This document shows, in pieces, positions 16,291-58,190 of a DNA stretch of 64,000 nt. The notes below the pieces were generated by a model. It did no database searches, was not told the DNA's origin, and was given only the letters and a program-made list of their open reading frames with translations. This DNA comes from Terfezia claveryi (Eukaryota; Ascomycota; Pezizomycetes; Pezizales; Pezizaceae), in the NCBI GenBank assembly GCA_015179025.1, contig WHUX01000082.1, positions 62,001 through 126,000 on the forward strand, given 5' to 3'. Within the stretch, counting starts at the first letter, position 1; each line of letters begins with the position of its first letter. A program made the translations under genes and the position numbers.

Positions 16291-17510
16291 TGAGCATCTA
16301 GCCGAATTCGCCCAATTCTTCTTCTAGAATGGGGGTTAGGCACGTATCCAGTCCTTCTTCCAGCCAATTACTATGGGCATCGAGAGTATCTTTGTCAGGG
16401 GATCCGCCAGGTTGTCTGGGACCGGGATTTCTCTCCCCCATATGCTGCATCAGTAAATATTGTCAGTTCAAGGTTGTCGATTTTGCACAAGGTAATCCCT
16501 TCTTCCTTAGTCGAGTGCAGATATCTCAATACCTGGTATGCAGTTTTCAGATGTCTTTCAGTCGCATCTTTTGTTCGTCTTCCTAAGAGGTTCACATGTA
16601 CAGAAATCTCGGGTTGGGTCATTCTGGCCACAAATAGGAGATCTCTGACAACTGACTAGTATTTTTTGGACTCCACCCTTAGATCGGTTTCTTCGGCTTT
16701 TTAGTAGGCATCGGGATTTAATGGAAGTGAGTGCTTTCTCCTATTCTCCATTCCAAGGTGTTGCTTTACCATAGCTTCTATCAAGCAAGTCTGAGTTAGC
16801 TTAACTTGGTCTTTCTGCCAGTGTAGTTCCATCCCCAACATGTTTGCCGGCCTTCCCCGCTTATCTAGCTCTACCCTTTCCGCTATCACTGTTCTACATT
16901 GTCGAGGTCCTTTTCTTTAGGTGTAATCTCAATGAGATTGTCAACATGAGTTCTAATAATAAGGTGATGGTCTTAGGTAGTATAGGTTCCTTCATCTCCG
17001 ATGCATTGGTGCATTCCAAGGGTGCAAAGGATTTTGCAGAGGGTTTTGAACCATTCATGGCCTGCTTGCTTTAGGCCATAGAGAGCTTTATCAAGCTTCC
17101 AATACTCTACCTCTCCTTCTTCATTGATACCGATAATATAGATATTATGTTCAAGGAGAGCTTGTAGGTACGCAGGCACAACGTCCCTTTGTCGGATTGC
17201 CTAATCTCAGTAGAGAGCAATAACTAGGAGGATTTTGAGGGTCTCAGGATGCATCATTTGCATATAGGTTTTGTCATAGTTGACACCAGCTTCTTGAGTA
17301 AATCCTCTTCCAACCTTTCGAGCTTTATACTTCTCGATACTACCGTCTGCATTTCTCTTGACCAAAAATTCGAGTTCTTTAAGGTATATCGGATCTGTTG
17401 ATTTTGGTGTATACTCCATATCAATTCAGCTATTCTCGTTCTTTTGCTCGAGCTTTAGCCCATTCTTCAGCTTGCGGAGAACTTCGAGCTTGCTCATCAG
17501 GTGGGTGGTC
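16291..17510 (-). pseudogene. Copia-2 reverse transcriptase/RNase H (5' truncated)
   Basis: Minus-strand pieces in several frames form the C-terminal half of a Ty1/Copia polyprotein. The RT start lies at about 17207-17419 (FLVKRNADGSIEKYKARKVG, then GRGFTQEAGVNYDKTY). LDKALYGLKQAGHEWF follows at about 17050, then LGMELHWQKDQVKLTQ at about 16820. RMTQPEISVHVNLLGR and LTIFTDAAYGGE (RNase H) lie at about 16440-16630, and a DNLADPLTK-like end at about 16400. Stops and frameshifts separate them. The gag, protease and integrase parts are lost, because the copy ends at about 17510 against a GC-rich hAT-like end. Confidence 0.85.
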
Positions 17511-17514
17511 TGAG

Positions 17515-17690
17515 TCAGCTAGCGTGCGCCACGGGTCGGGTCGGGGCGAGTTTCCCTAGTCGCCAACCCGCTTCGGAAACAGGCCCATCCCAGGGCAAAC
17601 CCGCTTCGAACCTAGTCTGGGTGCCAACCAGACTACTTCGAACCCGTTTCCCGGGTAACCCGTTAAAATCCGGTTACCCGCTTTTTTTCC
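17515..17690. mobile_element. hAT-like terminal fragment, GC-rich
   Basis: The stretch begins tagcgtgcgccacgggtcgg, close to the FB2 end TAGTGTGCGCCATGGGGCGA. It continues with repeated ccgcttcgaa/cccgcttcgg and aacccg motifs. No matching opposite end was found before the LINE sequence at about 17690, so it is probably one end of a truncated element. Confidence 0.45.
17613..17635. mobile_element. 23 bp micro-element with perfect 9 bp TSD
   Basis: A 23 bp unit starts TAGTCTGG and ends CCAACCAGACTA. It is flanked by the perfect 9 bp direct repeat CTTCGAACC at 17604-17612 and 17636-17644. Compared with the 43 bp unit at 20636, the left arm is shortened to 8 bp and the loop is gone, while the 15 bp right arm is complete. 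Confidence 0.8.
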
Positions 17691-19022
17691 GATTACTCGT
17701 CATCTCCAGGACACTCACTCGAACACAACTCCTTTGCCAGGACATCCAACTCACCAACCTCCGTCCCTCCATAAGTCGCAAGCCTCGTATCCTCCCCAAA
17801 CCTCACGTTTACCTCTTCAGTTATGCAGACGATATCAACCCCCTCATCATCACCTCCAAGCTTACAGCCTTCGAACATGGGCAGATCGTCAGCAAGGTGG
17901 ACCAGTATTTGGAAGAGGCAGCAGCAATCGACAATCTAACATGGGATCCAGCTAAGAACGAGAGGCTAGATTTTGGCTCCCAGATCAAGGCAAAGTCTAT
18001 TACAACCTTAGGTATGATCATCGACAATAACCTAAGGTTCTGCATATACATTACAGAAGGGGGTCTCCGCGCGTCCTCCAAAGCCACCCGTAAGGAAGCG
18101 AGAACGAGAGCCGGACATGGGACCAGAAGAACGGAGTGGAATCGACATGCCCTTTCAGCCTTTACATGGACACGCACGAACAGAGGCCCACAGAAGAGCT
18201 GGCTACATCACGTCGGCAAAGCAGAATCAGCAGAGTGCGCATGTGGACACCCCACCGAGACAGGAGAGCACATCGTCTTTACTTGCCCACGCTTCAACCG
18301 ACACCGGAGAGCCCTGTTGGGGGAAAGGAGCAGCTGGGAAGAGCTCGACAAGGCGGATTGGAGAAAGGAAGGGGAGGATAGTTACGAGGCCACGGAGACC
18401 TTTTTCGGGTTAATATATAAAGAACTCACTTAGGAGCAGTTCAGTTCACGGCTTAGTCCATTATCATTTACGAATTTCCTTCGTTCTAGTCCTCATTTTA
18501 GTTCAGTTATTTTAGTTCATTTCTTTGTTTACAGTTCGTCAGTTATCTTTGTCTTTGTATCTATTCCGCGTGGGTCTGGCCGATTAACTGGCCTCACCCT
18601 TGAATCCACCGGGTTTCCGTGTGGCTCCTCATAGCCCCACTATTGGGGCTGCATAGGAGTACTAAGTCTTTAAAAAAAAAAAAAAAAAATTCTGCATATA
18701 CATCTCAGCTCGGACCACAAAAGCAGAAAGGGCCCTCAAGATGCTTTTAAGGCTAGGCAATAGCAATGGGGGCATGTCTCCCACCTCTTTCAGATCTCTG
18801 TACACAGCTGTATTCAGCCAATCTTCCTTTGGGGTGCAGAACTCTGGTACAAAGCATCCGCTCATCGTGACCCTCGGCTTTCTAGCATGGAACTACTTGA
18901 ATATCAGGCCCTACGAAAGATTTGCGGAGCATATCACGGCAGCTCTAAGGACAAACTCTCCCTGATCGCAAACATTGAACCTCTCGAAAGCAAACTATGT
19001 GATATGTAGCATGCTGGGCAGC
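17690..19022 (+). pseudogene. LINE reverse transcriptase fragment (LINE-a), interrupted
   Basis: The host LINE runs from about 17690 to 18051 and resumes at 18704-19022. It contains an RT palm motif, LFSYADDINPLI, at about 17812. Next come NLTWDPAKNERLDF and ITTLGMIIDNNLRF, a thumb-like stretch common to fungal Tad-like LINEs. After the insertion it continues with ARTTKAERALKMLLRLGNSN, GGMSP and a frameshifted tail. The upstream endonuclease and most of the RT are absent. It is cut by LINE-b with a 14 bp target duplication. Confidence 0.8.
18052..18689 (+). mobile_element. LINE-b: 5'-truncated LINE with 14 bp TSD
   Basis: The insertion starts inside the ORF2 C-terminus and ends in a poly(A) run (18672-18689). 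It is flanked by the perfect 14 bp direct repeat TTCTGCATATACAT (18038-18051 and 18690-18703), as left by target-primed reverse transcription. Positions 18052-18433 encode the ORF2 end, including a Cys/His cluster (CACGHPTETGEHIVFTCP) typical of the C-terminus of fungal non-LTR retrotransposons, and LIYKELT before the stop. The 3' UTR then leads into the conserved tail (18585-18671). This copy links the short tails elsewhere in the window to a coding LINE. Confidence 0.93.
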
Positions 19023-19158
19023 TCGATCCGCGCGCCGGACCTGGCAGATTAACTTGCCTTGTCCTGAATCCACCCGGGTTTCCGGGTGGCTCTTCATGGT
19101 CCCCTTACTGGGACCGAACAAGAGTAAAGAGTATTTAGAAAAAAAGAAAAAAAAAAGC
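19023..19158 (+). mobile_element. LINE tail, plus orientation
   Basis: The block gcgccggacctggcagatta, ttgccttgtcctgaatccac, gggtggctcttcatggtccc, cttactgggaccgaacaaga ends in an A-rich tail (19138-19158). It follows LINE-a directly. No TSD was confirmed. Confidence 0.8.
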
Positions 19159-19319
19159 CAAGGCCACGGGTTATCGCCAAGTAACCCGAAACTTAGCAAA
19201 ATATGCTCGTGAGGTTCTGCAACCAGCAAGGTCAATAATAGTGCCTGGCAGTCAAATAGTGTTTACGCCTGAGTAATAGGGTTCTGAAGGCTTCTCTACA
19301 ACGGAGGCCTGCTACGTGC

Positions 19320-20010
19320 AATCAAGGGTTCAACATGGTTCGCCTGGTTGAGGGTGCACCTGAAATCAAGCATTATAAAAGTCTATAGTATTTCGAAACG
19401 TTTATGTACATAAAAGCTTATACTATGCGAGAAACACAAATCACCATACTATCTTACTGTACCTGCCCCTAACATAGCTCTACGGAAAGTAAGTAGCCTG
19501 CCTCCTGACAATCCGGGCAGGAACTGAGGTTCTCCTGGCAGCCGTCGGAGGCACGCAGCGTCGATGTCGGAGGCATGGCAGCGTCGATTCGGAGGCATAG
19601 CAGGCTTAGATCGCAGGCATGGCAGCGTCGATGTCGGAGGCATAGCAGTGTCGATGTCGGAGGCATGGCAGATTTAGATCGCAGGCACGACCGAACTTGC
19701 TGCAAAATATGGCAGGTCAGTTCTGAGTGCGTAAATTAGGGCATGACAATGCTCTTACCTATATAAATGCAACTTGCTCTGTCGCCTCAGTGACTTATGA
19801 TAGCTAGGCGTACACATGTTCTGTTCTCGAGTTTCCTTGCCTTGTGCTGAAGACGAAAATCACAATATGGCCTCTAGGTAGTCTGGTTGGCTGCGCATCG
19901 TTTGCTGGCGGCAGGTATATCCTGGGGGCAAGCTGGGAAATTAGGGGTGCGTTGGTCCACCCGACTGGGTATGATCAACCCCGCTTGGCAGCCCGTGCCG
20001 CTGCCGGTGT
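19320..20010 (-). mobile_element. Relic of an FB2-type foldback arm
   Basis: The order of blocks matches the FB2 arms: gtctatagtattt(c/t)(g/t)aaa(c/t)gtttatgtaca (19378; 44234 in FB2), then an array of a 23-24 bp unit (19545-19690), then gggtatgatcaacccc(g/a)cttggcag (19970; 51162 in FB2). Only one arm is present and the array units differ in sequence (gcagcgtcgatgtcggaggc), so this is a diverged relative. Confidence 0.6.
19545..19690. repeat. Tandem repeat, about 23-24 bp unit
   Basis: About six units of the type gcagcgtcgatgtcggaggc plus at(gg/ag), with some units carrying gcttagatcgcaggcat. The position corresponds to the arrays in the FB2 arms. Confidence 0.8.
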
Positions 20011-20048
20011 ACAAGCTTTTGGTTCGTTTACACTTTCAGGAGCAAAAG

Positions 20049-20132
20049 TGGAAGCACGGGGAATCGAACCCCGGACCTTCTCAAATCAAGTCAACTTGCA
20101 AATGAGATGTTATACCCCTAAACCATGCACCC
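20049..20132 (-). tRNA. tRNA-Ala(UGC) with a 12-13 nt intron
   Basis: The minus strand folds as a tRNA: acceptor GGGTGCA/TGCTTCC, A-box region TGGTTTAGGGG, anticodon stem TCTCA/TGAGA with anticodon TGC followed by A37, and T arm CGGGG-TTCGATT-CCCCG with a perfect B-box. An insert of 12-13 nt follows position 37, the standard place for nuclear tRNA introns. The acceptor carries G3:U70, the alanine identity pair. Pair 4:69 is a T-T mismatch, so this copy may be weak or decaying. A TTTT terminator follows the 3' end (20044-20047). CCA is not encoded, as usual in eukaryotes. Confidence 0.82.
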
Positions 20133-20237
20133 GTGTCTTGCAAAATATAACCCTGCTTTCTCCTATGAGGAAGTGTAGTATGTTTGGTCACGCTGATAGA
20201 GAGACACACTATTTGTGGTCCTTGTGAGCGTACAATA

Positions 20238-20873
20238 CAGATGACGCTCGATACAAGCATATCGTTCGGACCGAGGGGAATATGCTTATAACCAATATAT
20301 TCTTATGTCACGAGAAAATAGGCAAGTATGGAATAAACTCGGAAAAGCTGCGGAATAGTACCACGAATATGACGGGAGCATACAAGAGACAAATAAATAG
20401 ATATACGGAAGTGCAGGGTCCAGAATCTCAAGAGGAGGAAGAGCCAGGAGTTCCAAGACGACCCAAAAAGTCAGTGATCCTACACTGAACATGTTGACGC
20501 CGGCGCTGAATCTCGAGAATTTCGATTCGTTTTTTCTCACGGTTGAGCACATCCTGTAGCTCCATGATGTTCGCACTTGTGTATTGAGCTTCTCTGATGT
20601 TATTGTATGGTAACGTTGCAGAGCGGGGTTATTTCTAGTCTGGTTGGCACTACACCCTCTGTTGTGCCAACCAGACTAGGTTATTTCTTATCGATAAACC
20701 TCTCTTTGTAGCTTAGTGTATCGCTAGATACAAGCATATGTGTGGTGACTAAGCGAAAAAAATAAGAATATTCTAGTATCCAAAATATGCTTATTTACTA
20801 TGTGGGACCGGCGGAGGTATGCTTGTATCCAATATATGCTTATATCTGGTATGCTTGTATCGAGCGTCATCTG
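20238..20873. mobile_element. TA-flanked DNA element G with 24 bp inverted ends
   Basis: The ends are the inverted repeat CAGATGACGCTCGATACAAG (continuing catata) at 20238 and, inverted, at 20873, with TA on both outer sides (20236-20237, 20874-20875). This is the Tc1/mariner-superfamily pattern. Subterminal motifs such as aatatgcttata and tattcttat recur inside. A minus-strand stretch at about 20467-20576 (LNREKKRIEILEIQRRRQHV) may be a transposase C-terminal remnant. It lies within LINE-like sequence and carries the 43 bp micro-element. Its homologue is element F (38781-54414). Confidence 0.8.
20636..20678. mobile_element. 43 bp palindromic micro-element with perfect 9 bp TSD
   Basis: The unit has 15 bp perfect inverted ends, TAGTCTGGTTGGCAC, around a 13 bp centre. 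It is flanked by the 9 bp direct repeat GGTTATTTC at 20627-20635 and 20679-20687. The homologous site in element F (ggggtatttcttatcgataa at about 39183) is uninterrupted, which confirms an insertion and defines its ends. Confidence 0.9.
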
Positions 20874-20875
20874 TA

Positions 20876-21430
20876 TACTGTCGGTGTTTGGGCAAACCTA
20901 GCACCCAGTGATCACGTTTTGTCCTAGCGGTTACACCCTCCAACAGTCCTCACCACGAGATTGCCCTTCTAGTGATGGGCCAACATCTATTAACTTTTGA
21001 ATGGTCTTTCCCTGGTTTTGGTATGGGGACCACGATGCTTCTCGCCATCGCAAGGGGGGGGGGGGGGGGGGGTTTGACTGGCCCTCACACTGTCCTAGCT
21101 ATGTCATTCAAGACTGCCTTGCCTAGATCACAATCTTCTATAAGCCTCAGAGCTTATAATTGATTCCATCTGGTCCTGGTGCAGAGCTATTAGATGTTTT
21201 GCTCAATGCTTTCCTGATTTGGGCAATGTAGGAGTTATCGCCCTCCTCCCGATATACTATAGGAGAAGCTATTGTAATGACCCAAGAATGACCCCTTTCT
21301 TCCAGATCATTAACTCTAAGTGGTGCCTTTGGAAGCCTTCTACCTTCTCCTGATCCGTTGAGGGTTTTGCCATGGGTATCTTTGATGTCTCCCATAATTG
21401 GGTTGCACTTAAACGGGTCTTTTTGCAATC
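20876..21430 (-). pseudogene. LINE reverse transcriptase fragment (fingers region)
   Basis: Minus-strand frames at 21147-21430 read ...YIAQIRKALSKTSNSSAPGP, then DGINYKL, the conserved start of the RT domain of Tad/I-type LINEs. In another frame downstream, near 21000, VPIPKPGKDHSKVNRCWPI is the next RT motif. A 19 bp poly-G run (21054-21072) and frameshifts interrupt it. The fragment ends at the TA of element G, which seems to have inserted into this LINE. Confidence 0.8.
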
Positions 21431-21454
21431 CTCACAACATCTGTATGTAATTTT

Positions 21455-21535
21455 CTCTCGGTATATGCATATATTCGCTATAAGCATATACCCTCCGGTC
21501 CCGACCATATGCTTATCACGAAAGTTAACTGTAAC
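21455..21535. repeat. Fragment related to elements F/G
   Basis: The motifs gtatatgcatatattcgcta, aagcatataccctccggtcc and gaccatatgcttatcacgaa resemble the subterminal repeats of element G (aagcatatcg, cggaccgagg, aatatgcttata). The ends are not defined. Confidence 0.5.
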
Positions 21536-21599
21536 GTCATGGATGACTTAAGATCAATCATGCCTCTCAATATATACGCCCTTTTCGTTAGCCTAGTCC

Positions 21600-22031
21600 G
21601 CCGTAGATGGCCGAGATCGCGACCAAGACATCATTACACAGAATGAACAGGTCCAAGATGTGCTGCTACAACTCAGGACAGTATGAACTTCAGTAAGGCT
21701 CAACGCGAGAGGTCTGACAGATTACCCAATGAAGATGAGAAAGGAGCAATATCAGAGGAGCGAGAGGGGCTAGATAGGGAGGTTACAATTAGGATAATGA
21801 ACATGGGGTAGTAGCCAATGGAAACTCCACAGGAAGTACAAGATAGAGCAGTAGCGTATCAGAATATTCGAAAAGGAGAATCAAGGGCTGGTGGACGGTC
21901 GGAATGGACACCACACCGAAAACGATGGAGACACAGACACAGTCACAGATCCCGGCACCCAAGACGACAACACTGAACAACGTTGCTACCAACACCGATT
22001 CCCCTACAGCGCACACATACGCAAAGGCAGC
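21600..22031 (+). pseudogene. Possible LINE ORF1 (gag-like) remnant
   Basis: Plus-strand frames show an acidic/Glu-Arg-rich stretch, then Ser/Thr/Gln-rich sequence, and end THTYAKAAA just before the LTR-B insertion at 22032. ORF1 proteins of fungal Tad-like LINEs often carry a Pro/Thr-rich region followed by a TYA-type motif. The assignment rests on that and on LINE sequence nearby. It could also be an unrelated low-complexity frame. Confidence 0.3.
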
Positions 22032-22235
22032 TGCTAGAATGCCGTCCAATTCCGTCGTTCATTCCGCCCATTCCTTGCTTTACCACTTGCAACGGCTCGC
22101 ACTTATATTGCATGCTTCACTCATACTCGCACATCATATCGCGGCTTCATGGCATGCTTCACTCATATGACGTGCTTCACACATACGGCATGCTTCACAA
22201 CCTCCTTTAGATGTACGTTCATACATGTATATATA

Positions 22236-23111
22236 CCGTATTAATTCGCGAGTAAGAATGCTGTCTTACTAACAAACGGGCGGTCGGAGGGGCCTTAAAT
22301 TTACTGTCTTATATATGATACTAGCTTAAACACGGGGTACTTCCTTATAAAAGAAGGGGGGGGACAAAAAAAAATCCGGAACAAAAAAACCATTCCGGAA
22401 CAACACCGACAGTAGCATAATTGATATCTTTTTACACGATCTTCTCTCCAAGCGTAATTGTAGCATATTGCGCAGCCTCTTCTTTAGTGATGTAATCTCC
22501 ATGCTCAGTGTCACTTCTTATCCGCTTCCTCCTCATCATCCACAATCTCAAGGTCAGAACTTTCATTCTCCGTGTCTGTTGGCAGGTTGGGTTGGTCTTC
22601 AGACTCAGACAGTATTTTCCAATCAGGGACTGTATAGTTTGAGATTCCTTCAATATGGATCTCCGAGTCTGCCGTGCCATCGATTGGGACAGCAATTCCA
22701 AATTTGCGAAATGAGCGAGTTTAAGGGGTATTAGCTAAGTATACATTCAGGAGGATTTATAAGGTTGAGCTTACAATCATATCACGGTTGGCAGATACCG
22801 ACTCCCATGCTGTGGCTACCAATTTGGTCATAAGAATTCGCTGTTGGGAAGCTATATATTTATTCTCCATCCAATTGTCGAGATTTGCAGCATAGTGCGA
22901 TTGTGATATCTCATCGTGATGGTGATGAGTGAAAGAAACCGGCAGCGCCAGTCACCGTTGACATTCCTATACTACTGCCCTATAAGAAAAATTTGCTGTC
23001 TAAAACACGATTCGGATATCTCGGCCAAAATTAGGCTGTTTTACCCCTGTCTTATACACTACTTAATACTGTCCTGCCGAGTCGTACTTTCTTACTCGCG
23101 AATTAATACGG
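22236..23111 (-). mobile_element. Non-autonomous pogo-type element (POG-1a)
   Basis: The ends are inverted repeats, CCGTATTAATTCGCGAGTAA at 22236 and its inverse at 23111, flanked by TA (22234-22235, 23112-23113). The element is 876 bp and nested in LTR-B4. It contains only the C-terminal part of a transposase gene on the minus strand. Close relatives lie at 26775-27372 (opposite orientation) and 33913-34031 (one end). Confidence 0.88.
22437..22870 (-). pseudogene. Transposase C-terminus (DDE_1, pogo-like) in POG-1a
   Basis: In the minus direction, frames read NLDNWMENKYIASQQRILMT, then KLVATAWESVSANRDMI, then, after a break, SFRKFGIAVPIDGTADSEI and EAAQYATITLGEKIV before the stop. The AW..V..........FRK.GI..P.DG order is typical of the region after the catalytic core in pogo/Tigger transposases. 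The DDE core itself is deleted. The same ending (YATITLGEKIV) is encoded by the copy at 26775. Confidence 0.7.
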
Positions 23112-23277
23112 TATCCTGTTCAAATTCCTACTTGTTCGAGCTAACTAAGTTCAATACACTCATATGTATTCACTGCCTAACATGAAGTTGTTCTCTCATA
23201 CCTTCTCTGTGCACTCGACCTCTATTCGTATGTTCCTTCATTGGACGTTTGGCTCTTGCTACATACATACCTCTATA

Positions 23278-23587
23278 GCAGCAACCGAGCCAATCAGCTA
23301 GCTTGGAAGTGGTGATTTAAGAGCTCGCGGTACAAACATGCCTCAAGTACTCCCTGAGCACCTAATGTAGATTATCCTCGTACAGATGACGGGGTAGCGA
23401 TTATATCAACCGAGTCGATGTACATAGCTACGAAACATCAATTTCCATAAATTAATTGCATTATACACATTACTGAAAAGACTTCCTCGGCGAATATTTG
23501 CCAGCCTCGACAGAGCATAATGCACGCCCCAGATTCCTAAACACATCCCGATGTATTCTCCATAAGCATGATAGTTGGGTGAGAAAT
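23278..23587. other. Intergenic stretch downstream of the kinase gene
   Basis: No gene or element is recognised. This is the 3' flank of the minus-strand kinase gene. Confidence 0.4.
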
Positions 23588-24547
23588 CTAGGCCTCCTCA
23601 ATCCAAAGTGCAACACTCGCAAGATCGTGCAGTTCAGAAATGGCCCCCCGCTTTGCCTTGTCCCACAAATGCCCCCATGTTGGATTCACCGCAAGATTCT
23701 TATGCAACCTGCTCAGGGCAGCAAGACAGCTCCTGTTACCGTCGGTGTTTACTCTCTTCTTCGGGAATGTCTGGTATTTTTTTGGAAAAACCAGCTCTAG
23801 AACAAGTAGTACCAATGCACAGTAGTCATCTTCAATTCGGGGGTTGTAGGTTACATCGGAAACAGGGAGAGATTCCTTAATTGCACCCTCCACTACCCGT
23901 TCGGGAACGCAAATGAGCCCCCCGCTATACGTGGTGTCGCTGCTAGCAGGCAACTGAATAGCACAGTCGAAGTCAATAAGCACTGGAGTCGGTGTTGATC
24001 GATTGAGTACCACATTTGCGACACGGATGTCCCGGTGGATGACGCCTGCTGTTTGATGTAACCATTGGAGCGCATCCAACAATCCTGAGATACATTTCCG
24101 GAAACCATCCATCTTTTTGAAGGCATCCAAGCGAAGGGTTCTTCCGGCAGGAGTTAGACCAAATTGGACCCGTGGTGTTTGGTCGATATCATTAAACAGG
24201 CACTCATTTTTACCGAGCTTGCGAGCAGGATCCCATACTAGTTTGCATATGCCATTGGTAATATTGGAGCTGATATCCATACATCCTTTGAGGTGCCGAA
24301 GAATCTTCAGTTCTTGGATATGATAGTGTCCTGCTTTCCTAAGAGAAACCTTCACAACCATGTCTGAATCAGGCTTTTCTGGGACTGTAAACCGTCCTAT
24401 TCTCCATTTATCACTGCCGCCAATGAGCTCCTCTGCAAGTCCCAAAGTCGGCGAAAATGGAAGTGGCTTGCAGCCCATGTTAGGGGTGTTAGTGACGCCA
24501 CGGATGTAGTGAATCATCTGTACCCATGAAAGTGGACCGTATTTCAA
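23588..24547 (-). pseudogene. Protein kinase domain (FunK1-like), C-terminal half of the nuclease/kinase gene
   Basis: This 320-codon frame encodes a kinase-like domain. A possible ATP-binding Lys lies in VVKVSLRK at about residue 66. The catalytic loop is HRDIRVANVVL at about 170, the metal-binding site reads LIDFDCA (DFD in place of DFG) at about 190, and VPERVV at about 215 replaces APE. Fungal FunK1-like kinases and kinase domains of Crinkler-type proteins show this HRD...N...IDFD pattern. There is no ATG at its start: the frame opens directly where the upstream nuclease frame stops (24544), in a different phase and with no intron signals. I read the two as one gene split by a frameshift. 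Whether it is a dead allele, a sequencing error or a programmed shift cannot be told here. Confidence 0.75.
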
Positions 24548-26181
24548 GAGGTGATATGGGGAGTCCGCTCGGTGGCCAGGCTTCCTCTTACATTCAACAA
24601 GATTTCATTAACATTGGTGATAAATCCCCAGAAATCGTTTCTGGTAGGCTGGGCTTGCAAAAGATCCAGAACATAATCCTTGACCTGTCCAAGCCACTGT
24701 GCTGTATCGACATCATGTTTTCGACTTTTTACTTCAATAATCCCGTGTGTTGCTAGCCTGTGGGCCTGCCGCACTCCCTGGATACGAATCGAAATATCCG
24801 GAGATTCCCCTAATGAATAGTGCTTCTTCGAGCTGTTGATGATGGAGCAGCCAGGCAGGAGTGGGCTTAAACCGTTAAGAATAAACTTATAGTAAGTTCC
24901 TTCCTTGTTTTCAGGTTCGCCCATTAGTTCATTCACCAGTTTCGCAACATCCCCTTCCTCTGCTGCTGTCAGCGCATGTGTGGGTGCCAACTCCGGACAA
25001 AGGAGGGACTTCACCGGTTCACTATTCCAGGCATCCGCTCGTGTGACTGACCTGCCACCAATGTAATGATAAACTGACTTTGAGGCCTGCCATGCCGATT
25101 TTAAATAAGCAACCTGTTCATGAAGCACCATATTAACTGCCCTATATGCCTGCATTGAGTTCGTATGTGACTCGATCACATTTCTGTGAGCTTTCTTCTC
25201 AGCCTCCAATGACTCGATCACATTTCTGTGAGCTTTCTTCTCAGCCTTCAATGCATTTTCAGACGAGGCAATCTTCTGCTCCCATAGATTTTCAGACGAG
25301 GCAAGCTTCGCCTCGCATAGATTTTCAGACGAGGCAAGCTTCGCCTCCCATAGATCCTTCGCAGCCTTCAGCTTCTCCTCCCATAACTCTTTCTCAGACC
25401 GTCGTTGCTTTTCCACAAAATCAAGTTTCTCATTGTGCCTCTCTTCCAACTTCCATATGATTTTTTGAGTTAGCTTGTGTTTAGCTTGGGAATCGAGTTT
25501 TTAAACCAACCTTCTCACACAATTCTTCGAACTTTCTCAGCACCGTAGCTGCTGCTGTTTTCTGAGGGTGCTTCCAAACCCAGTACACTAATATTTTGGG
25601 ATTTGGTTAGTTAGTAAATTGTACTAGAGTTGAAACTGCAAGGAGAATATACCTGTACTCCAAAAATCCCGTAATAGGTAGCTCGATAGAAGAGAATTTG
25701 GTGTGACCGTGGAACCGAGAAACTTGGTGGCTACGGAAGCTGGCAACATATCGTCGTCCTCATCTGGGGTCTCATTCGCATTTGGTACTGGCATGTCATT
25801 GTTGCTGGAATTCGGAGTACCCAGGTTCAACGCTGCCAATTTGGTGGTGATGTCGGTACTAGCCGGAGGAATTGGAGAAGAAGGCACGGCAGCGGGGTGC
25901 GGTGATGCAGTAGAACTCACGGGAGGGTAAGTAGTGGGAGATCCATTGAGATGAGTATTATGAAGGTCTCTACGAGCCGTGAAGATAGGAGATGATCGGT
26001 GTTGGACCCCGTAGTTGTATGTTTGCACAGAGTATAACAGATTGTTTGTAGTCTCATGCCGTTTGAACCCATAATCGCTTATGTGATCACCGAAACCACG
26101 GCTGTCCAGAATCAGACTATAGCATTGTGTAGTCTGGTTGGCACAACTGCCTATTCTGGCATTACAATACCCCCCACACAT
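24544..26181 (-). pseudogene. N-terminal half of the nuclease/kinase gene: low-complexity region, coiled coil and PD-(D/E)xK-like domain
   Basis: Exon 1 is about 25653-26181, Ser/Pro/Thr-rich then acidic (NETPDEDDDM). A putative 65 bp intron (25588-25652) has GTATAT, TTACTAAC and TTAG signals, and splicing keeps the frame into KHPQKTAAATVLRKFEELCEK. A second putative 61 bp intron (25450-25510; GTTGGT, GCTAAC, AAG) restores the frame into exon 3. Exon 3 begins with a coiled coil with repeated ASSENL(W/C)E units, followed by a globular domain. Its end, SPDISIRIQGVRQAH then HGIIEVKSRK and WLGQVKDYVLDLL, fits a PD...ExK restriction-endonuclease-like fold. Such nuclease-kinase fusions are known among Crinkler-like proteins of fungi. 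The first ATG lies beside a TAGTCTGG micro-element end, so the true start may be lost. Confidence 0.65.
26127..26144. repeat. Single micro-element end
   Basis: TAGTCTGGTTGGCACAAC matches the arm of the 43 bp unit at 20636. No second arm or 9 bp duplication was found beside it. It lies in the first codons of the nuclease/kinase reading frame. Confidence 0.6.
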
Positions 26182-26479
26182 TAGTGGTGGTCACTTCTTT
26201 ATTGCAATAACGAAAATTGCAATAACGAAGCGCTTTGGCAAGTTGGCACCCGCTCTGATTGGCCAGCCTCGTTATTACAATTGCCATTATACCCCTCGCT
26301 GGATGTTGTGTATGATGCTTCTCAATAAAAAGAATTGAATTTCCTTTTTTTTTATTAATTTCTTCGGAGAGAGTGACTTACTCTCCCTTTTTCAATGGGC
26401 ATTGAGGAAAACTTGTCCAAGTTCTTTAGGATTGTGGGTGTAACTAGAATTATGGTTATTAGGATGCGTAATAATATTA

Positions 26480-26572
26480 TTTTTTAGTTTTAAATACTCA
26501 TTACTCCTATGCGATCCACTAAGGAGACCATGAGGAGCTACCTGGAAACACTGAAAATCCAGGTGGAACTAC
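26480..26572 (-). mobile_element. LINE tail fragment, minus orientation
   Basis: The order tttaaatactcattactcct, atgcgatccactaaggagac, catgaggagctacctggaaa ends early at ccaggtggaa. It carries the T-rich end but lacks the distal half of the tail. Confidence 0.65.
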
Positions 26573-26774
26573 TTAGTAGTCTAGTTGCACGACCAACACG
26601 ACCGACACGGCCTTGGAGGGTCTGGTTTAAAACATTAAAAATTTGTATGTAACTCTCAGTCTGCCTAGCACTCACGTCATCTACATAATCCTTTACATAG
26701 TATGTATATTCTATTACTTATAGTCTCTGGATCTCTCCTGCCTTCCATTATGAATAACTGTTTTACTTTGTTTA

Positions 26775-27372
26775 CCGTATTAATTCGCAAGAAAGTACCA
26801 CTCGGCAGGACAGTATTAGTGTATAAGACAGGGGTAAAACAGCCTAAGTTTGGCCGAGATATCCGAATCGTGTTTAAGACAGCAAATTTTTCTTATAGGG
26901 CAGTAGTATAGGAATGTCAACGGTGACTGGCGCTGCCGGTTTCTTTCACTCATCACCATCACTTGTTACAATGTCAATTCCGCAGGCACCTCGTGCTGGA
27001 CCCAGTAATGTCAATTGCGCAGGCACCTCGTCCTGGATCCAGTGCGCAAACCACCAGTCAAAAACCTCGCGCGACCTCAAGATTGAAACTGCAGAATTCT
27101 AGCAGGCGGACAGCGATTTGATGAGGAGGAAGCGGATGGAAGTGACAATGAGCAGGTAGATTACATTACTGAAGAAGAGGCCATGCAATATGCTACAATT
27201 ACGCTTGGAGAGAAGATCGTGTAAAAAGATATCAATCTTGCCACTTTGGAGTTTCTTTTATAAGAAAGTATCTCGTGTTTAAGCTAGTATCGCATATAAG
27301 ACAGTAAATTTAAGTCCCCTCCGACCGCCCGTTTATGAATAAGACAGCATTCTTAGTTGCGAATTAATACGG
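26775..27372 (+). mobile_element. Non-autonomous pogo-type element (POG-1b)
   Basis: It has inverted ends CCGTATTAATTCGC at 26775 and inverted at 27372, with TA on both sides (26773-26774, 27373-27374). At 598 bp it is a shorter deletion derivative of the same family as 22236-23111, in opposite orientation. It keeps the 5' end (ggcaggacagtattag...) and the transposase end YATITLGEKIV with its stop at about 27225. Its right TA forms part of the ATG that opens the Tc1-like frame at 27374. Confidence 0.85.
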
Positions 27373-27373
27373 T

Positions 27374-28353
27374 ATGTCAACTCATGCTGATATGGCCCAA
27401 CCTGCCCCAAATACCTCCTTGACCTCCTTGACATCCCTAGATAGCCCTCCTCTGCAAGTCCCGAGCAGGAAAAAACAGCTCTCTAACTTTGAGAAAGGGA
27501 AGATTATTTGTGCCTATGAACAAGGATGGAGCTATCAACGAATTGCAGACTATATTGGTCGATCAAAACTTACAATACAAGACTTCATTAGGTGCTATGT
27601 TGAGCGTGAGAACCATGAAAACAGAATGCCCCAAAAAGATTTCAGAAGATACTGAAAAAGTAATCCTTGACTCGATTGAAGGGCAAAGATGACTCTGATG
27701 CAAATTGAATAATATCCATCCATGAACTCTGAATCACATGCTTTGAGGAAAAGGTATTCGGAAGTGGATAGCAAGGAACTGTATTCAACTTTACCCTAAA
27801 ACTTACTGTATTATCTTATATACTAACATAAATTTATACTATAGGACATCCCACGATATATCTATTATGGTATGGGGATGCTTTTATGGATCAACATTGG
27901 GATATCTATGGCCCTTGGAAGATGGATGAAATAATGCGATTAAATATGTTGAGATTTTGACACACATCCTTCCTGACGTCCGTCTAGAGTTGACTGAAAT
28001 TCTTGGCATTGACGATCCAATTTTCATGCAGGACAACTCGTCAATTCATACCTACAAACTTGCATGCCAATGGTTCAAAGACAATGACTGGGTAGTTGCT
28101 GACCACCCTGCCTGCTCTCCCGACCTAAATCCAATTGAACATATTTGGGCACATATGAAGCGTCAGCTTCATAAAATGTTCCCTAATCTAATGAATATGC
28201 CTGGGGGCCAGCAGTAGTAAAGGAAGCATTGGCAGATGCGTTGCAAGAGATTTGGAAGGATATTCCAGAGTCACTATTAGAGAGTCTCTACAGCTCAATG
28301 CCTCGCTGTGTAGTGGCCGTTATCAAGGCAGAGGGTTGGTATACAAAGTACTA
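27374..28353 (+). pseudogene. Tc1/mariner-like transposase pseudogene
   Basis: The first frame (27374-27655) has an N-terminal helix-turn-helix: LSNFEKGKIICAYEQG, then WSYQRIADYIGRSKLTIQDF. After a gap with stops come ISIMVWGCFYGS at about 27865 and then 27957-28217, with IFMQDNSSIHTYKLACQWF and HPACSPDLNPIEHIWAHM. These are the second catalytic Asp and the last Asp/Glu block of Tc1-type DDE_3 transposases. The region that should hold the first catalytic Asp (about 27700-27850) is deleted or scrambled. The frame then degrades to about 28353. TIRs could not be fixed, though tagtctagttgcacg at 26582 could be a left end. Confidence 0.8.
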
Positions 28354-28509
28354 GTTCCGTAGAATTCCTGTTTGTTATGTATATAGCTGCGACCAGACTG
28401 CTCCGATACTACAATACATATCTGTGCGCGGCTAAGCCTAGAGTATGCGCGATAAATACAAGACATGCATACTGCTTGCATAAGACCGTATGGTTTTTTT
28501 TGCCACCTA

Positions 28510-28710
28510 GCTGTATATCTCATTCATATTCCTACTTGTTTGAGATAACTACCAAGTCATCACTTCATATAATAGAAACATGCACTCACTACTCCTTCGA
28601 ATATCTTCTTCATATCCATCTCTCTGCTGTGACCAACTCGCTCTATTCGCACATTCCTTCATTGGACACTTGGATCTCTCTGCTCACCTATTGCTATTCC
28701 TATTTCTATA
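28510..28710 (+). mobile_element. LTR-B fragment (B5), 3' part
   Basis: It starts near tatctcattcatattcctac and ends with ctattcctatttctata at 28710, matching the right two-thirds of LTR-B1. The left part is missing, so no TSD can be tested. Confidence 0.75.
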
Positions 28711-28725
28711 ATAACGCTACGAACC

Positions 28726-28757
28726 CCCTCTTTGAGGGTGCTGTGCCAACCAGACTA
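28726..28757. mobile_element. 32 bp one-armed micro-element with near-perfect 9 bp TSD
   Basis: The unit ends GTGCCAACCAGACTA (complete right arm) and begins with a small hairpin, CCCTCTTTGAGGG, in place of a left arm. It is flanked by CTACGAACC (28717-28725) and CTACGAAAC (28758-28766), an 8/9 match. Confidence 0.65.
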
Positions 28758-28778
28758 CTACGAAACCATAGGGAATAC

Positions 28779-28823
28779 TAGTCTGGTTGCACTACCCCTC
28801 GCAGTGGTAGTGCAACTAGACTA
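28779..28823. mobile_element. 45 bp palindromic micro-element with near-perfect 9 bp TSD
   Basis: The arms are TAGTCTGGTTGCACTACC at the left and, inverted, TAGTCTAGTTGCACTACC at the right (17 of 18 bp). The centre is 9 bp. Flanks are AGGGAATAC (28770-28778) and AGGGAATGC (28824-28832), 8/9. It lies only 21 bp from the unit ending at 28757. This subtype has GCAC where the 20636 unit has GGCAC. Confidence 0.8.
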
Positions 28824-28859
28824 AGGGAATGCACCCCAGCCGAGATCTTTCTATATCTT

Positions 28860-29040
28860 AGTCCAAACTGTCCGTATCTGGACACTAGGCATCTTAATTA
28901 TAGACTCACTAGCCAGCAATAATTGCAACAGCTGGATTCCGTGGAATATAATAAGAGATGTGTAAAGTTAGGTTCTAGCAGTCTAGGTTATGGGATTTGA
29001 GACAGTTCATTTTCGGCTGGGTTGGGTGTTGGTCTTGAAT
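28860..29040. repeat. Dispersed repeat E, copy 2
   Basis: Homologous to 1190-1400: agcaataattgcaacagctg, ggaatataataagagatgtg and gtctaggttatgggatttg line up in order. No coding content. Confidence 0.55.
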
Positions 29041-38055: not shown

Positions 38056-38220
38056 AACAAGACGTTGGGTAGGGATCCAACAAAAGTACGAGAGCGAGGA
38101 GATAAGTATATATACATGTTGGCGTATCGAGCCAAGGCTGACAATGGGATAAGCTTCCCGAGATAGGAAATCTTTAACCCGAACGAAGACAAGAACAATT
38201 CCCCTATCACCTGCGACGCA

Positions 38221-38243
38221 TAGTCTCGATCAGACCCTCGTAG
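38221..38243. mobile_element. 23 bp micro-insertion with perfect 8 bp direct repeat
   Basis: TAGTCTCGATCAGACCCTCG (continuing tag) sits between two copies of GCGACGCA (38213-38220, 38244-38251) within the Gypsy-2 LTR. The same 23 bp occurs at 958-980 without a flanking repeat. The unit contains GTCT...AGAC but is not a full palindrome. Confidence 0.6.
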
Positions 38244-38427
38244 GCGACGCAGGTGATAGCAGGTGATATCAACCTCCCCAGGTGATGTCAAAGACAATGA
38301 CAACAATAACAAGAGTCGAACAGGAATCCGTCCCTCGAACAGGAATCCGTCCCTCGAACAGGAATCCGTCCAACTCTCAGATCTCAGAGAGGCTAAGGAG
38401 AGATGGTTGTTATACTAGGGGCCTGTA

Positions 38428-38778: not shown

Positions 38779-39320
38779 TACAGTATACTCTTGATATAAG
38801 AATATCGTCCAGTGGGGGGGGGTAATATTCTTATATCAAATATATTCTTATATCAAATGTCAGGGTAACTACTAAAGGTGTACATCAAAAAAGAGAATTA
38901 ACGTGGGGTAGAGGAAGAACTAGGTATAGGAGGACTAGGAACAGCCTTGGATAAAGTGAAGAAGGCGGTAACTTGCCATATGAGATCAGGATGTGCATTT
39001 GTATAATTATATATCTGCTTGCCTTCTTCTTCTGTCCACCCTTGACGTTTCAATATACCAGTAGCCAGTATATAGAATTAGCTCAGGAATTCGGAGGTGG
39101 TATTGTAGGTGTCGTAGTATTGTATGTCACAGTATTGTTTTTGGCTGCGTTATGTGCTTCGGTGTAGCATTGTTGTTGTACGGGGTATTTCTTATCGATA
39201 AACATTCCTATTCTGGCTAGGCTATTTATATATTACCCAATCAGGTACTCTTGCTATAAGAATACCTTAGTAAACAACTACAAAAAAATAAGAATATTTT
39301 TCTATTAAATATATTCTTAT

Positions 39321-43857: not shown

Positions 43858-44436
43858 TAGTGTGCACTACGGGGCGAGTAAAACTCGCCTCGCTCGCCAA
43901 GACTCGCCTCAGTGAGCGAGTTTTCGTCTCCTCCATAACTCGCCGAGTCGGCTTTTTACTACCTCAACTCGAATCGCGATTAATCGGTGATCTACAGATT
44001 ACTCACCAAGATTGAAGGCTAGCCTGTTTTATACTGGGGCCTCTGCCCCAGGCGCGGTATACACCACGGCGCCTTAGGTATATGGTTGCACGCACGCGGG
44101 TAGGACCTTGAGTTTCTACGAAGAGTAGTGAAGAGAAGCGTGTTTACCCTCCCTACAACTGAGGCCAGCTACCTGGAATGAAGTGAACCAATGATCCAGG
44201 ACATATGCACGCCTAAGTATAATAAATGTCTATAGTATTTCTAAATGTTTATGTACAGGGGAGCTAATGCCACAAGAGACAGAAATATAATTAAACGGAC
44301 CTGTCCAACCTTGCCATGTGCCTAGCGAACTCGAGGCCAAGAGCCTGGCCCCTACGTTGGTTTGTGAATGAAAGTGGTGGAAGTACAGCTTAGACTAGAG
44401 TGGTGCAGAGATATGGCAAAGGGGACGGCAGAGGGA

Positions 44437-44660
44437 AGGCAAGCTGGACAGCGGAGGCATGGCAAGCTGGACGGCGGAGGCATGGCAAGCTGGACAGCAG
44501 AGGCATGGCAAGCTGGATGACGGAGGTATAGCAAGCTGGACGGCGGAGGCATCGCAAGCTGGACGGTGGAGGCATGGCAAGCTGGATGATGGAGGCATAG
44601 CAAGCTGGACAGCGGAGGCATGGCAAGCTGGATAACGGAGGGATGGTAAGCTGGACGGCA
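44437..44660. repeat. Tandem array in the left arm of FB2
   Basis: About ten units of 23 bp such as ggaggcatggcaagctggac plus ggc. The mirror array lies at 52010-52290. Repetitive Pro/Leu/Cys/Ala frames read here are artefacts. Confidence 0.9.
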
Positions 44661-44733
44661 GAGGGAAGGCAATACTCTCACCCAGATTGCAGGCAGTTCA
44701 TGACTTGTGTTATTGATGAAAATTCCAGATGCT

Positions 44734-51046: not shown

Positions 51047-52009
51047 GGGGACGGAGAGCTCACTTAAAAGTTGTGCTTCGTATGCCAGCAGTAGCTACTA
51101 TACAGACTGTAATTTGGTGTGGCAGGCAGGCACTTTAGGGGGGCGCTAGTTGACGCAACGGGTATGATCAACCCAGCTTGGCAGCTGGCTCGAGTATGCC
51201 AGCCTAAACTGGCAATATGCTAACGTTACACTATGCTTGTGCAGGCAACAGTCTCATTCGGCTGAACAATGAACTATACCTACGTCTTTGCGTAGTTAAG
51301 ATGTTGCAGCCATAATATATGTCCTTGTCCATATATTGGCCACCTGATATATATATGGAATTCATGTCTTTGCGCCCTATATATATATATGATGTCCTAG
51401 CATATATCTAAGCCTCGAAGGCTTGAATTCCATGCATATATGTATATAGGCTGCAAAAGTATGAATTCTCAAGCATATATATAACCAGCAAAGGCATGAA
51501 TTCCCAAGCATATATATAACCAGCGAAGGCATGAATTCCCATGCAAATATATAGCCAGCGAAGGCATGAATTCCCAAGCAAATATATAGGCCGTGAAGAC
51601 ATAAATTCCATATATATATCAGGTGGCTAATATATGGACAAGGACATATATTATGGCGGCAACATCTCAACTACGCAATGACGTAGGTATTGTTCATTGT
51701 TCAGCTGAATGAGACTGTTGCCTGCACAGGCATAGCACAACATTAGCATATTGCCAGTCTAGGCTGGCATACCTGAGCCAGCTGCCAAGCGGGGTTGATC
51801 ATCCCCGTTGCATCGACTAGCGCCCCCCTAAAGTGCCTGCCTGCCACAACAAATTACAGTCTGTACAGCAGCTACCGCTGGCACACGAGGTACAACTTTC
51901 AAGTGAGCTCTCCGTCTCCAGCATCTGGAATTTTCATCAATAACACAAGTCATGAACTGCCTGCAATCTGGATGAGAGCATTGCCTTCCCTCCGCCGTCC
52001 AGCTTGCCA
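51047..52009. repeat. Inner arms and centre of FB2
   Basis: The segment 51047-51385 pairs with 51600-51915. For example, gctgaacaatgaac and cttgtgcaggcaacagtctc are inverted on the other side. The centre holds four to five units of gaaggcatgaattcccaagc with atatata spacers. The joint ctccagcatctggaattttc at about 51917 is the uninterrupted counterpart of the Gypsy-1 target site. Confidence 0.85.
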
Positions 52010-52290
52010 TCCCTCCGTCATCCAGCTTGCCATGCCTCCGTCATCCAGCTTGCCATGCCTCCGCCATCCAGCTTGCCATGCCTCCGCCGTCCAGCTTGCC
52101 ATGCCTCTGCCGTCCAGCTTGCCATGCCTCCATCATCCAGCTTGCCATGCCTCCGCCGTCCATCTTGTGATGCCTCTGCCATCCAGCTTACCATGCCTCC
52201 GTCATCTAGCTTGCCATGCCTCCGCCATCCAGCTTACAATGCTTCCGCCGACCAGCTTGCCATGCCTCCGCCGTCCAGCTTGCCTTCCCT
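52010..52290. repeat. Tandem array in the right arm of FB2
   Basis: About twelve units of 23 bp such as cttgccatgcctccgccgtc plus cag, mirror image of 44437-44660 but with a slightly different unit number. Confidence 0.9.
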
Positions 52291-55429: not shown

Positions 55430-58190
55430 AGAACCGATGAACTGAATATTAGAGAGATGGCCGAAACTCAAGAGCCTCATAGCGAAGCCAAGCCGCTAAA
55501 AATCGACATTATGAGGCCCTCCTCTTCCGGGTAAAAGAAGCTGAAGAAATCCTCTGTAGCATCCCAATGTTCCCCGTATTGAAAGGTTACTGAGCGAGTG
55601 ATATCGCTGGGTATTGGAGGATGCAGCGGTGGACTCTTAGTGCAGTAAAGCAGGGTGATGCGAGTGCAGGAGCGAGAAGATGTGCGAGCGTATGAGCATG
55701 AGAGTGTGATGTTCGGTCAAGAGTAGACAGTCTTATTGAGTCTATCTCAAGAAGCATATAGATACATGAGTGTCCTGAGAGCTCGTATATATAGAGACGA
55801 GATCAGGGTAAAGACGATCTAAGCCAGCTATCCTAAGAGCCGCAAACCTATGGATGTGTAGTCGATAATTGTAAATGCGGGCACTATACTTGGATTGTTA
55901 CTGTATGCTTACCCGACAACGCTGATGATGAGGAGACAGTAGTCCAGAATAGTGATCATTGTGGATGTGCGATTTAGGTAGGAGGGTGAGCTGTGGAGAG
56001 TTCTAAGGCGGATCACAGCCTGCTATGGATAAAAATTAGATACCTAAGAGACTGTCACAAGCGCTTTTATATTCGTCACTACCAGCCTACAGCAAACTCT
56101 ATTCAAATCACATCAGGCACTGTTGCAAACGGTGTCTTCAAGTTCAGGAACCGCTCAAAAACTCAGCTACTGGCTGCTTACCTACCCCATAATCTGATGT
56201 TAGCCATGTCAGGGGCGGCAGCTAGGAGAGCGAGAAACTAGTCTATGATGAACGAAAGCACAAGCACGAAATATCTCATCTCGTTGCAGAGATCACTTAA
56301 GCACTTGATAGGGTAGTATTATTATACGATTACATACATATATGATGTTTTGGGAATTTGACAACTCCAAATGCATAGAGTCGTCGGGTTGGTTACGTTC
56401 TAAAGCGAAAATAAGCAGGAAGAATGTGTAACTACGAACCACACAGGATCGACACATGTATACCTCCTCATGGCCCCCCACTGGGACCGAAGGGCACATG
56501 TATGTAGAGGCCGCCTCCGCGTATAGGCACTCACAAGCACTTGCAATGGTAAAAGCAGGGACGGGTTAAATTTAGGTTAGTTAAGATGATGATTGTACAC
56601 CCCTAAAGCTGCCTCGTTTCGCTGCGTACAAAGCTCCGCCTAATTGTACCTAAAACTACCCTATGTACGATTGCAATCGCACTTTCATACTCCAGCCATT
56701 TTTTTAGCGGCACACCACAGCAACCGTTGCCGTGGCGGAAGCGGTTGGTCTGCCGTTGGTATTCGGTACCTACCCGTTCTGTGTGTGTGCGTAAGCTATG
56801 GATGCTATTGGCCCCACGTCACCTCCATGAGATTGGCGGTTCGAAGACGGAGAGCAGATTCTTTCCCGGTCATAAAAATTATTTCCAAAATTCCATAGAT
56901 CAAGACAAGTTTTGGGAATATATGTAACTAGGACATCGACTTACTCTAGCAACAGGGGATGAATTTTTTTGACAGGTATTATTACATTTATATGCAATCA
57001 TTGACAATTTCGATCTAGGTCTACTTGGTAGCTGTTGGGATACGTTAAGCATAATACTTTTCTTGGCTCAAAAATTAATTGTATGTGTCTCACAAATAAT
57101 AATGTTCTACGTATTTCTCAAATCCATACCAATAGCCTATGGCTCAGCGGCTCACTTACTGTGAACAATTGTAATTGTATCACATCAAAATGTTGTGCAA
57201 CTTACCAGTTTGTCGCATCTAATAAAAAATTTATTTTTTCTTTTTCAAATGCCCAGTAACCGGCAATACGTAAGGCCATCGCCAGGGCCCGATGCATCAA
57301 TTCTGCTTAGATACCTTCGCTATGTACATCAGGCGAGATTGCCCGCCCCTAAGAAATAACAAACGACAACCCCGATCTTATCTGACAAAATTTGATGTAC
57401 TCAATTTCACCTGATGCAGAGTCTGTGACAATTGGTGTCAACCTGAGTATGTGGTGAATAAAATGCAATGCTTTCAATATTATATTAGATGGAATATTCA
57501 ACACCACATATTTGCCCTGAAGATGCATAGATATTCAGAACATCTATATATATATATAATATATTGCGTTTCTCCAACATCTTGTCACAAGGCGAGACTT
57601 TGAACTCTTGGCAACGTAAGGCTGATAAAGAGGGCGACTTACGTACTCTAATGAATAAACCTCCCTTGGAGCGGTCGGGGTCGAGACTAATGAATAAAAT
57701 ACGTTACTACACTAGTAAGTAGCAAGGTAAATAATTACATTAACATAGAAGTGATATCCGTACCAACAGAAGCAGCACCTGGAATCGCGATATGAGCCAT
57801 AATGTGAGGAAGGATCATGGTAATTTCATAGGTCAAAATATCGCCATAAAGATTGCTCGTAGGTTCACAGAAAATCTCACTTGTATCCCTCCACGCCAAT
57901 CTGATTTGGTTTCGGAATACATAACTTGTTATAACTGTAGTAGGTTTTTTCATAGTGGTGTTCAAGTCGTTACACATAACCTGAAACTTCATTTAGAATT
58001 ATGTTCATAACTATGGCATTTTTGACACCTGACTCTAGGCCATGTGCAGTTTGCCAGGGCTTTGGATATCTCTGAGTGGTCTTGATGCTTTGTAAATCCA
58101 AATAAAATAGATGGTCAACTGGAGTCAATATTCTCACTGTCAGTGTACAGTACATCTAAGTACCTATGGCCCAGTGGTATAGTTATATTC
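55430..58190. other. Long stretch without recognised gene
   Basis: Short frames only. A scrap of LINE tail (cctcctcatggccccccact, 56462-56495) and an AT dinucleotide run (about 57545-57563) are visible. No other element was identified. Confidence 0.4.

Follow-up and report, generated by a model that had tools for sequence, protein, structure and literature searches.

Short insertions of 9-54 bp, flanked by 9-bp target duplications, are present in very high copy number throughout the genome of the ascomycete Terfezia claveryi. We consider it very probable that they are end fragments left as scars by some transposase-like activity, not self-mobile micro-elements, and we favour, at a probability of somewhat over one in three, the reading that they are repair scars of excision involving a staggered cut inside the departing element. 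The window, as we call the 64,000-nucleotide stretch analysed, is positions 62,001 to 126,000 of contig WHUX01000082.1 (G000:C776:62001-126000), in a 72.6-Mb assembly (GCA_015179025.1; 794 contigs). A first-pass annotation of the window had described four units sharing their ends and carrying 9-bp flanks, and all four, with those ends and flanks, lie where it had placed them:

17604..17612: left duplicate of the first unit, CTTCGAACC, 9 bp
17613..17635: first unit, 23 bp, both ends: 8 bp of one (TAGTCTGG) abutting 15 bp of the other (GTGCCAACCAGACTA)
17636..17644: right duplicate of the first unit, CTTCGAACC, 9/9
20627..20635: left duplicate of the second unit, GGTTATTTC, 9 bp
20636..20678: second unit, 43 bp, palindromic, two exact ends
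20679..20687: right duplicate of the second unit, GGTTATTTC, 9/9
28717..28725: left duplicate of the third unit, CTACGAACC, 9 bp
28726..28757, plus strand: third unit, 32 bp, one-ended: right end (...CCAGACTA) only
28758..28766: right duplicate of the third unit, CTACGAAAC, 8/9
28770..28778: left duplicate of the fourth unit, AGGGAATAC, 9 bp
28779..28823: fourth unit, 45 bp, palindromic, both ends (TAGTCTGG ... CTAGACTA)
28824..28832: right duplicate of the fourth unit, AGGGAATGC, 8/9

Frequencies were determined in an unselected sample of 264 kb, the window together with C1:1-200000, picked without regard to the motif; a duplicate was counted if at least 8 of 9 bases matched across a unit of less than 56 bp, and 200 shuffled 8-mers served as control. 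CCAGACTA occurs 49 times in this sample against a mean of 6.9 for the shuffled 8-mers, and 21 of its 49 ends have a 9-bp duplicate (14 of them perfect) against a control mean of 0.23 and maximum of 5; one of the 21 is counted from both sides, leaving 20 distinct units. In the whole assembly the 15-base end TAGTCTGGTTGGCAC is present in 2,885 copies, the reversed pattern in none. When the right flank of 190 ends in fetched sequence was matched upstream, the longest match showed a sharp mode at exactly 9 (54 ends), with 9 ends at 8, 10 at 10 and 7 at 11-13, the match being 7 or less, that is, no clear duplicate, in 110. Left out of this count are L001-L008, because of overlap with other stretches, and L096 and L098, which are duplicated loci; two-ended units enter it from both sides. 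With flanks swapped, matches of 8 or more arose in 40 of 1,900 cases, part of them probably through drawing the same or a duplicated end. The motif also emerges de novo: where perfect 9-bp direct repeats adjoin the sequence between them, GACTA ranks first among 5-mers (19 observed, 0.95 expected), those ranked below it resembling tandem repeats. Units nest within other units (L077, C1:174483). A symmetric target preference, hinted at by eye at 29 sites, was lost at 61, where 88 of 500 random sets were equally symmetric.

Paralogous copies lacking the unit were sought by joining the two flanks of a site and matching them to the genome. Ungapped alignments were obtained at the following sites (window coordinates except where C1 is given):

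39213..39298, plus strand: empty site of L047, a 31-bp unit at about 575.6 kb of G000:C1; 94% identity, ungapped, a single GAATACCTT
51114..51220, minus strand: empty site of L101, a 54-bp two-ended unit in C12; 92% identity, ungapped, a single 9-mer
51746-51847: second empty copy of the L101 site; 91% identity, ungapped, a single 9-mer
C1:155637-155701: empty site of L097; ungapped, a single 9-mer, right flank of 10 bases only

Sites without the unit, with small gaps elsewhere in the alignment, were found as well for C1:65902 (91% identity), C1:152612 (83%, mismatches in the 9-mer) and the 15-bp one-ended unit at C1:152134 (80%, one 9-mer mismatch). What is missing at the paralogous sites is the unit plus one duplicate, the 15-bp one-ended case included. 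Within the window, the joined flanks of the 20636 unit match three copies at 96% identity over all 240 bases; these copies span 237-242 bp against 292 bp in the window, absence being judged by length, and a fourth (88% identity) spans 259 bp. Eight related copies span the joined flanks of the 17613 site, the unit again being absent by length, and exceed a one-duplicate site by 8-9 bp; no copy spanning the site of the 28726 and 28779 units was found. The mode at 9, the excess of duplicated ends and the sites without unit thus uphold the first-pass view that the insertions are real, their outer ends and the 9-bp length of their duplication being fixed; the tabulation of flanking 9-mers that it had proposed as a check gives, in the 264 kb and the fetched sequence, matches far above chance.

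The surroundings of the units in the window are themselves repetitive. The flanks of the 17613 unit (17493-17764) have further copies some 0.9 kb away from hAT matches on C90, C667, C572 and C27, and the unit may therefore lie within a hAT-related repeat. Those of the 20636 unit (20516-20807) are part of a repeat with at least 40 other genomic matches (40 of 257 candidates scored), and a tRNA-Cys gene on the minus strand (20048-20132) lies some 500 bp from this unit. The left flank of the 28726 and 28779 units is a repeat that ends by about 28715 and has 39 other scored matches.

Most units possess a single end. One-ended units account for 16 of the 20 distinct units in the 264 kb, one being a nested composite, and two-ended units for 4; genome-wide, two exact 15-mers lie within 60 bp of each other in at most 46 places, hence at most 92 of the 2,885 ends, an upper bound because some places are two adjacent one-ended units (e.g. 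L058). These proportions do not support the idea that a transposase moves units typically made of two inverted ends that abut. Of the four two-ended units in the 264 kb, three happen to lie in the window, which accounts for the first-pass impression; the third unit reported (28726-28757) is itself one-ended, and the majority of this form had been missed. A one-ended unit has one exact end (…CCAGACTA), its other side being cut off flush with the duplicate, and on this flush side there is no surplus of matches longer than 9. Examples with perfect duplicates are CTAGATGTT[GTGCCAACCAGACTA]CTAGATGTT, ACAGAGGCT[34 bp]ACAGAGGCT and the nested pair at C1:174468-174483.

The one-ended units fall into two length classes. 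Those with CCAGACTA in the 264 kb measure 9, 10, 10, 13, 14, 14, 15, 15 and 15 bp, and, in the longer class, 25, 28, 31, 32, 34, 34 and 36 bp. Among 61 rows scored as one-ended (duplicates at least 8/9, 38 of them perfect), 25 are 9-15 bp long, 13 of these exactly 15, none is 16-21, one is 22 (a related end type), 30 are 25-36 and five are 38-49; three of the last five are misscored two-ended places (L094 from both sides, L110) and two are unclear, and no clean one-ended unit longer than 36 bp with duplicates occurs among the 61. Left-end-like sequence is present in only 4 of these rows, none of them a clean unit starting inside the left end. Stretches L029-L088 were picked by exact 15-mer and L092-L111 as two-ended; lengths below 15 are consequently under-represented in the 61 rows, and the frequencies of lengths and of two-endedness are unbiased solely in the 264 kb.

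A related end type, ...CGAGACTA, which had gone unnoticed at first pass, behaves in the same way at two places in the window:

38212..38251, minus strand: related end type ...TGATCGAGACTA, one-ended, 22 bp at 38221-38242, duplicates 8/9
57651..57698, plus strand: related end type ...GGTCGAGACTA, one-ended, 30 bp at 57660-57689, duplicate ATGAATAAA 9/9

In the 264 kb as a whole this type has 9-bp duplicates at 5 of its 13 CGAGACTA ends, 2 of them perfect, and its copy near 958 in the window has none. In one subfamily 101 of 334 ends extend as CNNNGG, which may be plain sequence conservation. A covarying hairpin in the longer class, plausible by eye, was weak when tested (6 of 500 shuffles reach the signal) and is not used as evidence.

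Two-ended units begin, by definition, at TAGTC. A perfect 9-bp duplicate was found in 15 of 20 fetched places, and L095/L096 and L097/L098 being duplicated loci, this amounts to 13 of 18 distinct units; at L094 the duplicate is 8 bp, at L110 the repeat is displaced by 4 bases, and L092, L104 and L107 are without a clear duplicate. The inner junction differs among them (L041, for instance, is a 15+15 palindrome), and L099 and L100 contain an identical 40-bp unit between different duplicates. The two-ended pattern has no match in viral, bacterial and archaeal contig collections, which says little. Pairs of ends on C1 and C2 separated by about 600-1,100 bp were considered as miniature inverted-repeat transposable elements (MITEs) and rejected: several have their own nearby duplicate (at least 8/9), and the outer flanks of the pairs, judged by eye, mismatch each other in all five stretches (L029-L033).

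One-ended fragments are immobile as units and must therefore have been made in place, a tip of the transposon being either joined to the site or left behind there. Cutting of a transposase-like kind followed by repair is indicated by the exactness of the outer end, the constancy of the 9-bp stagger and the flush truncation of the other side. From these observed features, together with the unit-free sites, the one-ended majority and the two length classes, we infer an excision step, an internal cut, tail extension and a parent. The parent would be a transposon with inverted ends of the TAGTCTGGTTGGCAC type and a 9-bp target stagger, whose insertion as a full element would create the 9-bp duplication. 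Excision would nick one strand at the edge of the element and the other about 15 bases inside, so that each chromosome end retained up to 15 bases of the element as a single-stranded tail. Were both tails trimmed, the 9-bp copies could anneal and the site be restored without trace; one tail kept would give a one-ended scar of up to 15 bp, and both kept a head-to-head scar, e.g. 15+15. The longer class would arise where a tail was lengthened, with a different copy of the inverted repeat as template, to about base 22-36. An internal staggered cut at excision explains the 15-bp limit and the flush side.

One close likeness is to the P element. P footprints, like these units, retain the duplicate and terminal bases of one or both ends; the duplication in the P-element superfamily is 8 bp, in contrast to 9 here, and the second length class of 22-36 bp and the thousands of end copies per genome are further differences. 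A pile-up at 15 bp with nothing at 16-21 fits a P-type internal cut, the fragments being indirect evidence and drawn from a sample partly selected by the 15-mer. According to the relevant part of PMC7776569, P transposase makes its cut 17 bp into an inverted repeat of 31 bp, which would compare with 15 bases here, in both cases a preferred inner limit within an end of about 31-36 bp. The Mutator-like element Muta1, which makes duplications of 8-9 bp, occasionally leaves up to 13 bp of its end upon excision, as one section of PMC5225508 reports.

Several observations weigh against excision, among them that the parent has not come to light. No TAGTC...GACTA element of 52 bp-12 kb with a perfect 9-bp duplicate was found in about 319 kb scanned. 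Mutator-type matches (PF10551) number at least 21 in the genome; 11 loci of 4.4-7 kb each were fetched, and in none of them is the transposase enclosed by an inward TAGTCTGG pair, termini having been identified in two of them only. The long element with the same ends and a transposase, which the first-pass annotation had advised looking for, thus appears in neither set. P-element domain PF21787 gave 0 matches, control genomes being likewise silent. For bare 9-bp tandem duplications there is no clear excess (10, where periods 8 and 10 give 8 and 5), so that the model requires restoration to be almost complete wherever both tails are lost. A cut at 15 bases does not by itself account for the 22-36 bp class, and some two-ended units have inner arms of about 16-24 bases (by eye), yet lengths of 16-21 are missing among one-ended ones. 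In the same section of PMC5225508, the Muta1 remnants arose from donors without target duplicates, unlike the scars described here; with duplicates, precise restoration was the rule (about 90% of excisions), and its authors infer cuts outside the end.

Several candidates for the parent were rejected. L090 (1452-4105) and L091 (1806-4441), on G000:C61 and C89, are Mutator-like elements of about 2.6 kb with perfect 9-bp duplicates and inverted ends (CGGACTGACTC...) identical over the 20 bases compared; these ends differ from those of the units. L089 (G000:C773:253500-260500) has a 541-aa Mutator-like transposase frame between 1.6-kb inverted repeats of 97% identity, to which TAGTCTGGTTGG is internal and in the wrong orientation. 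L112 and L113 contain one internal end copy each, and L113 and L118 one further single end each, none paired around the transposase. Inward pairs of long ends, among the matches listed, occur at C135:449886/459000 (9.1 kb) and C29:113557/114026 (470 bp); they are possibly full elements or chance, a rough reckoning of the pairs, from positions alone, placing them not clearly beyond the latter. When the interiors of 158 fetched ends were compared with one another, the matches, partly inspected, were short end-like sequences, overlapping stretches and duplicated loci.

Mutator-like elements (MULEs) make duplications of 8-11 bp, typically 9, which agrees with the mode here; no MULE transposase lies between ends of this sequence in the 11 loci read. 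The Mutator origin suggested at first pass consequently retains its 9-bp length and nothing else, no Mutator element with these ends having been found. The first-pass suggestion that larger elements insert and are precisely reduced comes near the reading we favour, though no larger element with these ends occurs in the sequence read. The genome also has 9 KDZ (Kyakuja-Dileera-Zisupton) matches and at least 150 hAT matches; the part of PMC12730594 dealing with duplications gives 7-8 bp for KDZ and 8 bp (5-8 bp) for hAT, in contrast to 9 here.

Some of these difficulties diminish if the scar is born at the new site, a possible course of events that we hold only slightly less probable than excision. 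In such an aborted insertion one tip, rarely both, would be joined at a 9-bp stagger, the body lost and the break sealed, repair synthesis copying the first 15 or 22-36 tip bases; no full element would ever have stood at the site. This accounts better than excision for the missing full element, and also for the lack of a clear excess of bare duplications and for the one-ended majority. It requires a double-strand stagger where one tip only is joined, an intermediate without direct evidence, and no counterpart was found in the literature on footprints and on aborted or single-ended transposition (titles and abstract openings, among the matches listed). We regard as doubtful that end-only insertion is the normal visible product of the system, a single tip being joined to a 9-bp staggered target so that just 15 or about 22-36 of its bases stay there, in thousands of such events and with no element ever installed.

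Insertion by reverse transcription seems improbable. Copies of long and short interspersed elements (LINEs and SINEs) truncated at the 5' end have one fixed and one variable end and a target duplication, and the units could by analogy be 5'-truncated copies of a short RNA with the 3' end ...GUGCCAACCAGACUA, made by LINE-like target-primed reverse transcription; the length classes could then reflect a folded segment at whose two sides the polymerase pauses. Against this, the duplication is fixed at 9, there is no tail beyond the fixed end, forms with two exact ends exist, and no clean one-ended unit with duplicates exceeds 36 bp. The fold signal is the weak one mentioned above, the best stems differing between units, and a search of 17400-29000 with Rfam returned only the tRNA above gathering score, with one weaker match away from the units.

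Hardly more plausible, indeed slightly less so, are truly mobile ultra-short MITEs served by a transposase in trans. The frequency of perfect duplicates in two-ended places (15 of 20, two pairs being duplicated loci) and the recurrence of the same 40-bp unit at L099 and L100 with different duplicates speak for this. The units share with MITEs a non-coding nature, high copy number and target duplication and, in the two-ended minority, inverted ends. MITEs are usually 100-800 bp long with inverted repeats at both ends; the units are 9-54 bp, most (16 of 20) lack the second end, and no longer form was seen in about 319 kb. Preferred break points at 15 and about 25, moreover, could make identical inner junctions recur. 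REP/REPIN sequences, the short, high-copy palindromes of bacteria, resemble the units in those respects and differ in that here there are 9-bp target duplications, a eukaryotic host and a one-ended majority. That the units are conserved hairpins, regulatory motifs or chance repeats rather than insertions, to which the palindromic two-ended units might lend colour, is next to impossible: fixed 9-bp duplications at a frequency that greatly exceeds the controls, and paralogous sites in which the unit is missing, already contradict it.

Two other features of the window may be recorded. A predicted protein at 24544-25449 has 3 matches only: two from Terfezia boudieri, at 74% identity over 59% of the query length, and one from T. 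claveryi, at 52% identity. A 696-bp inverted pair (92% identity; 43977-44672 and 52050-52745, about 7.4 kb apart), with 23-bp tandem arrays, encloses a Tf2-type chromodomain retrotransposon fragment.

Among the matches listed, at the level of titles and abstract openings and with most subscription journals outside coverage, such scars were not found described in the literature on fungal MITEs, footprints, 9-bp duplications, desert-truffle transposable elements, aborted or single-ended transposition, P-element footprints, Pezizomycetes palindromes or KDZ elements. The kind, a footprint or aborted-transposition scar, is already known; what looks new is how many there are, that most are one-ended and that their lengths fall into two classes. 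Annotation pipelines probably miss such units, each being short and mostly one-ended. With their exact ends and duplicates, natural scars in the thousands would make up an uncommon record of transposase cutting and host repair, their two length classes directly predicting where the enzyme cuts or synthesis halts; and if the scars arise at insertion rather than at excision, small templated insertions in eukaryotic genomes would have a source not recognised before.

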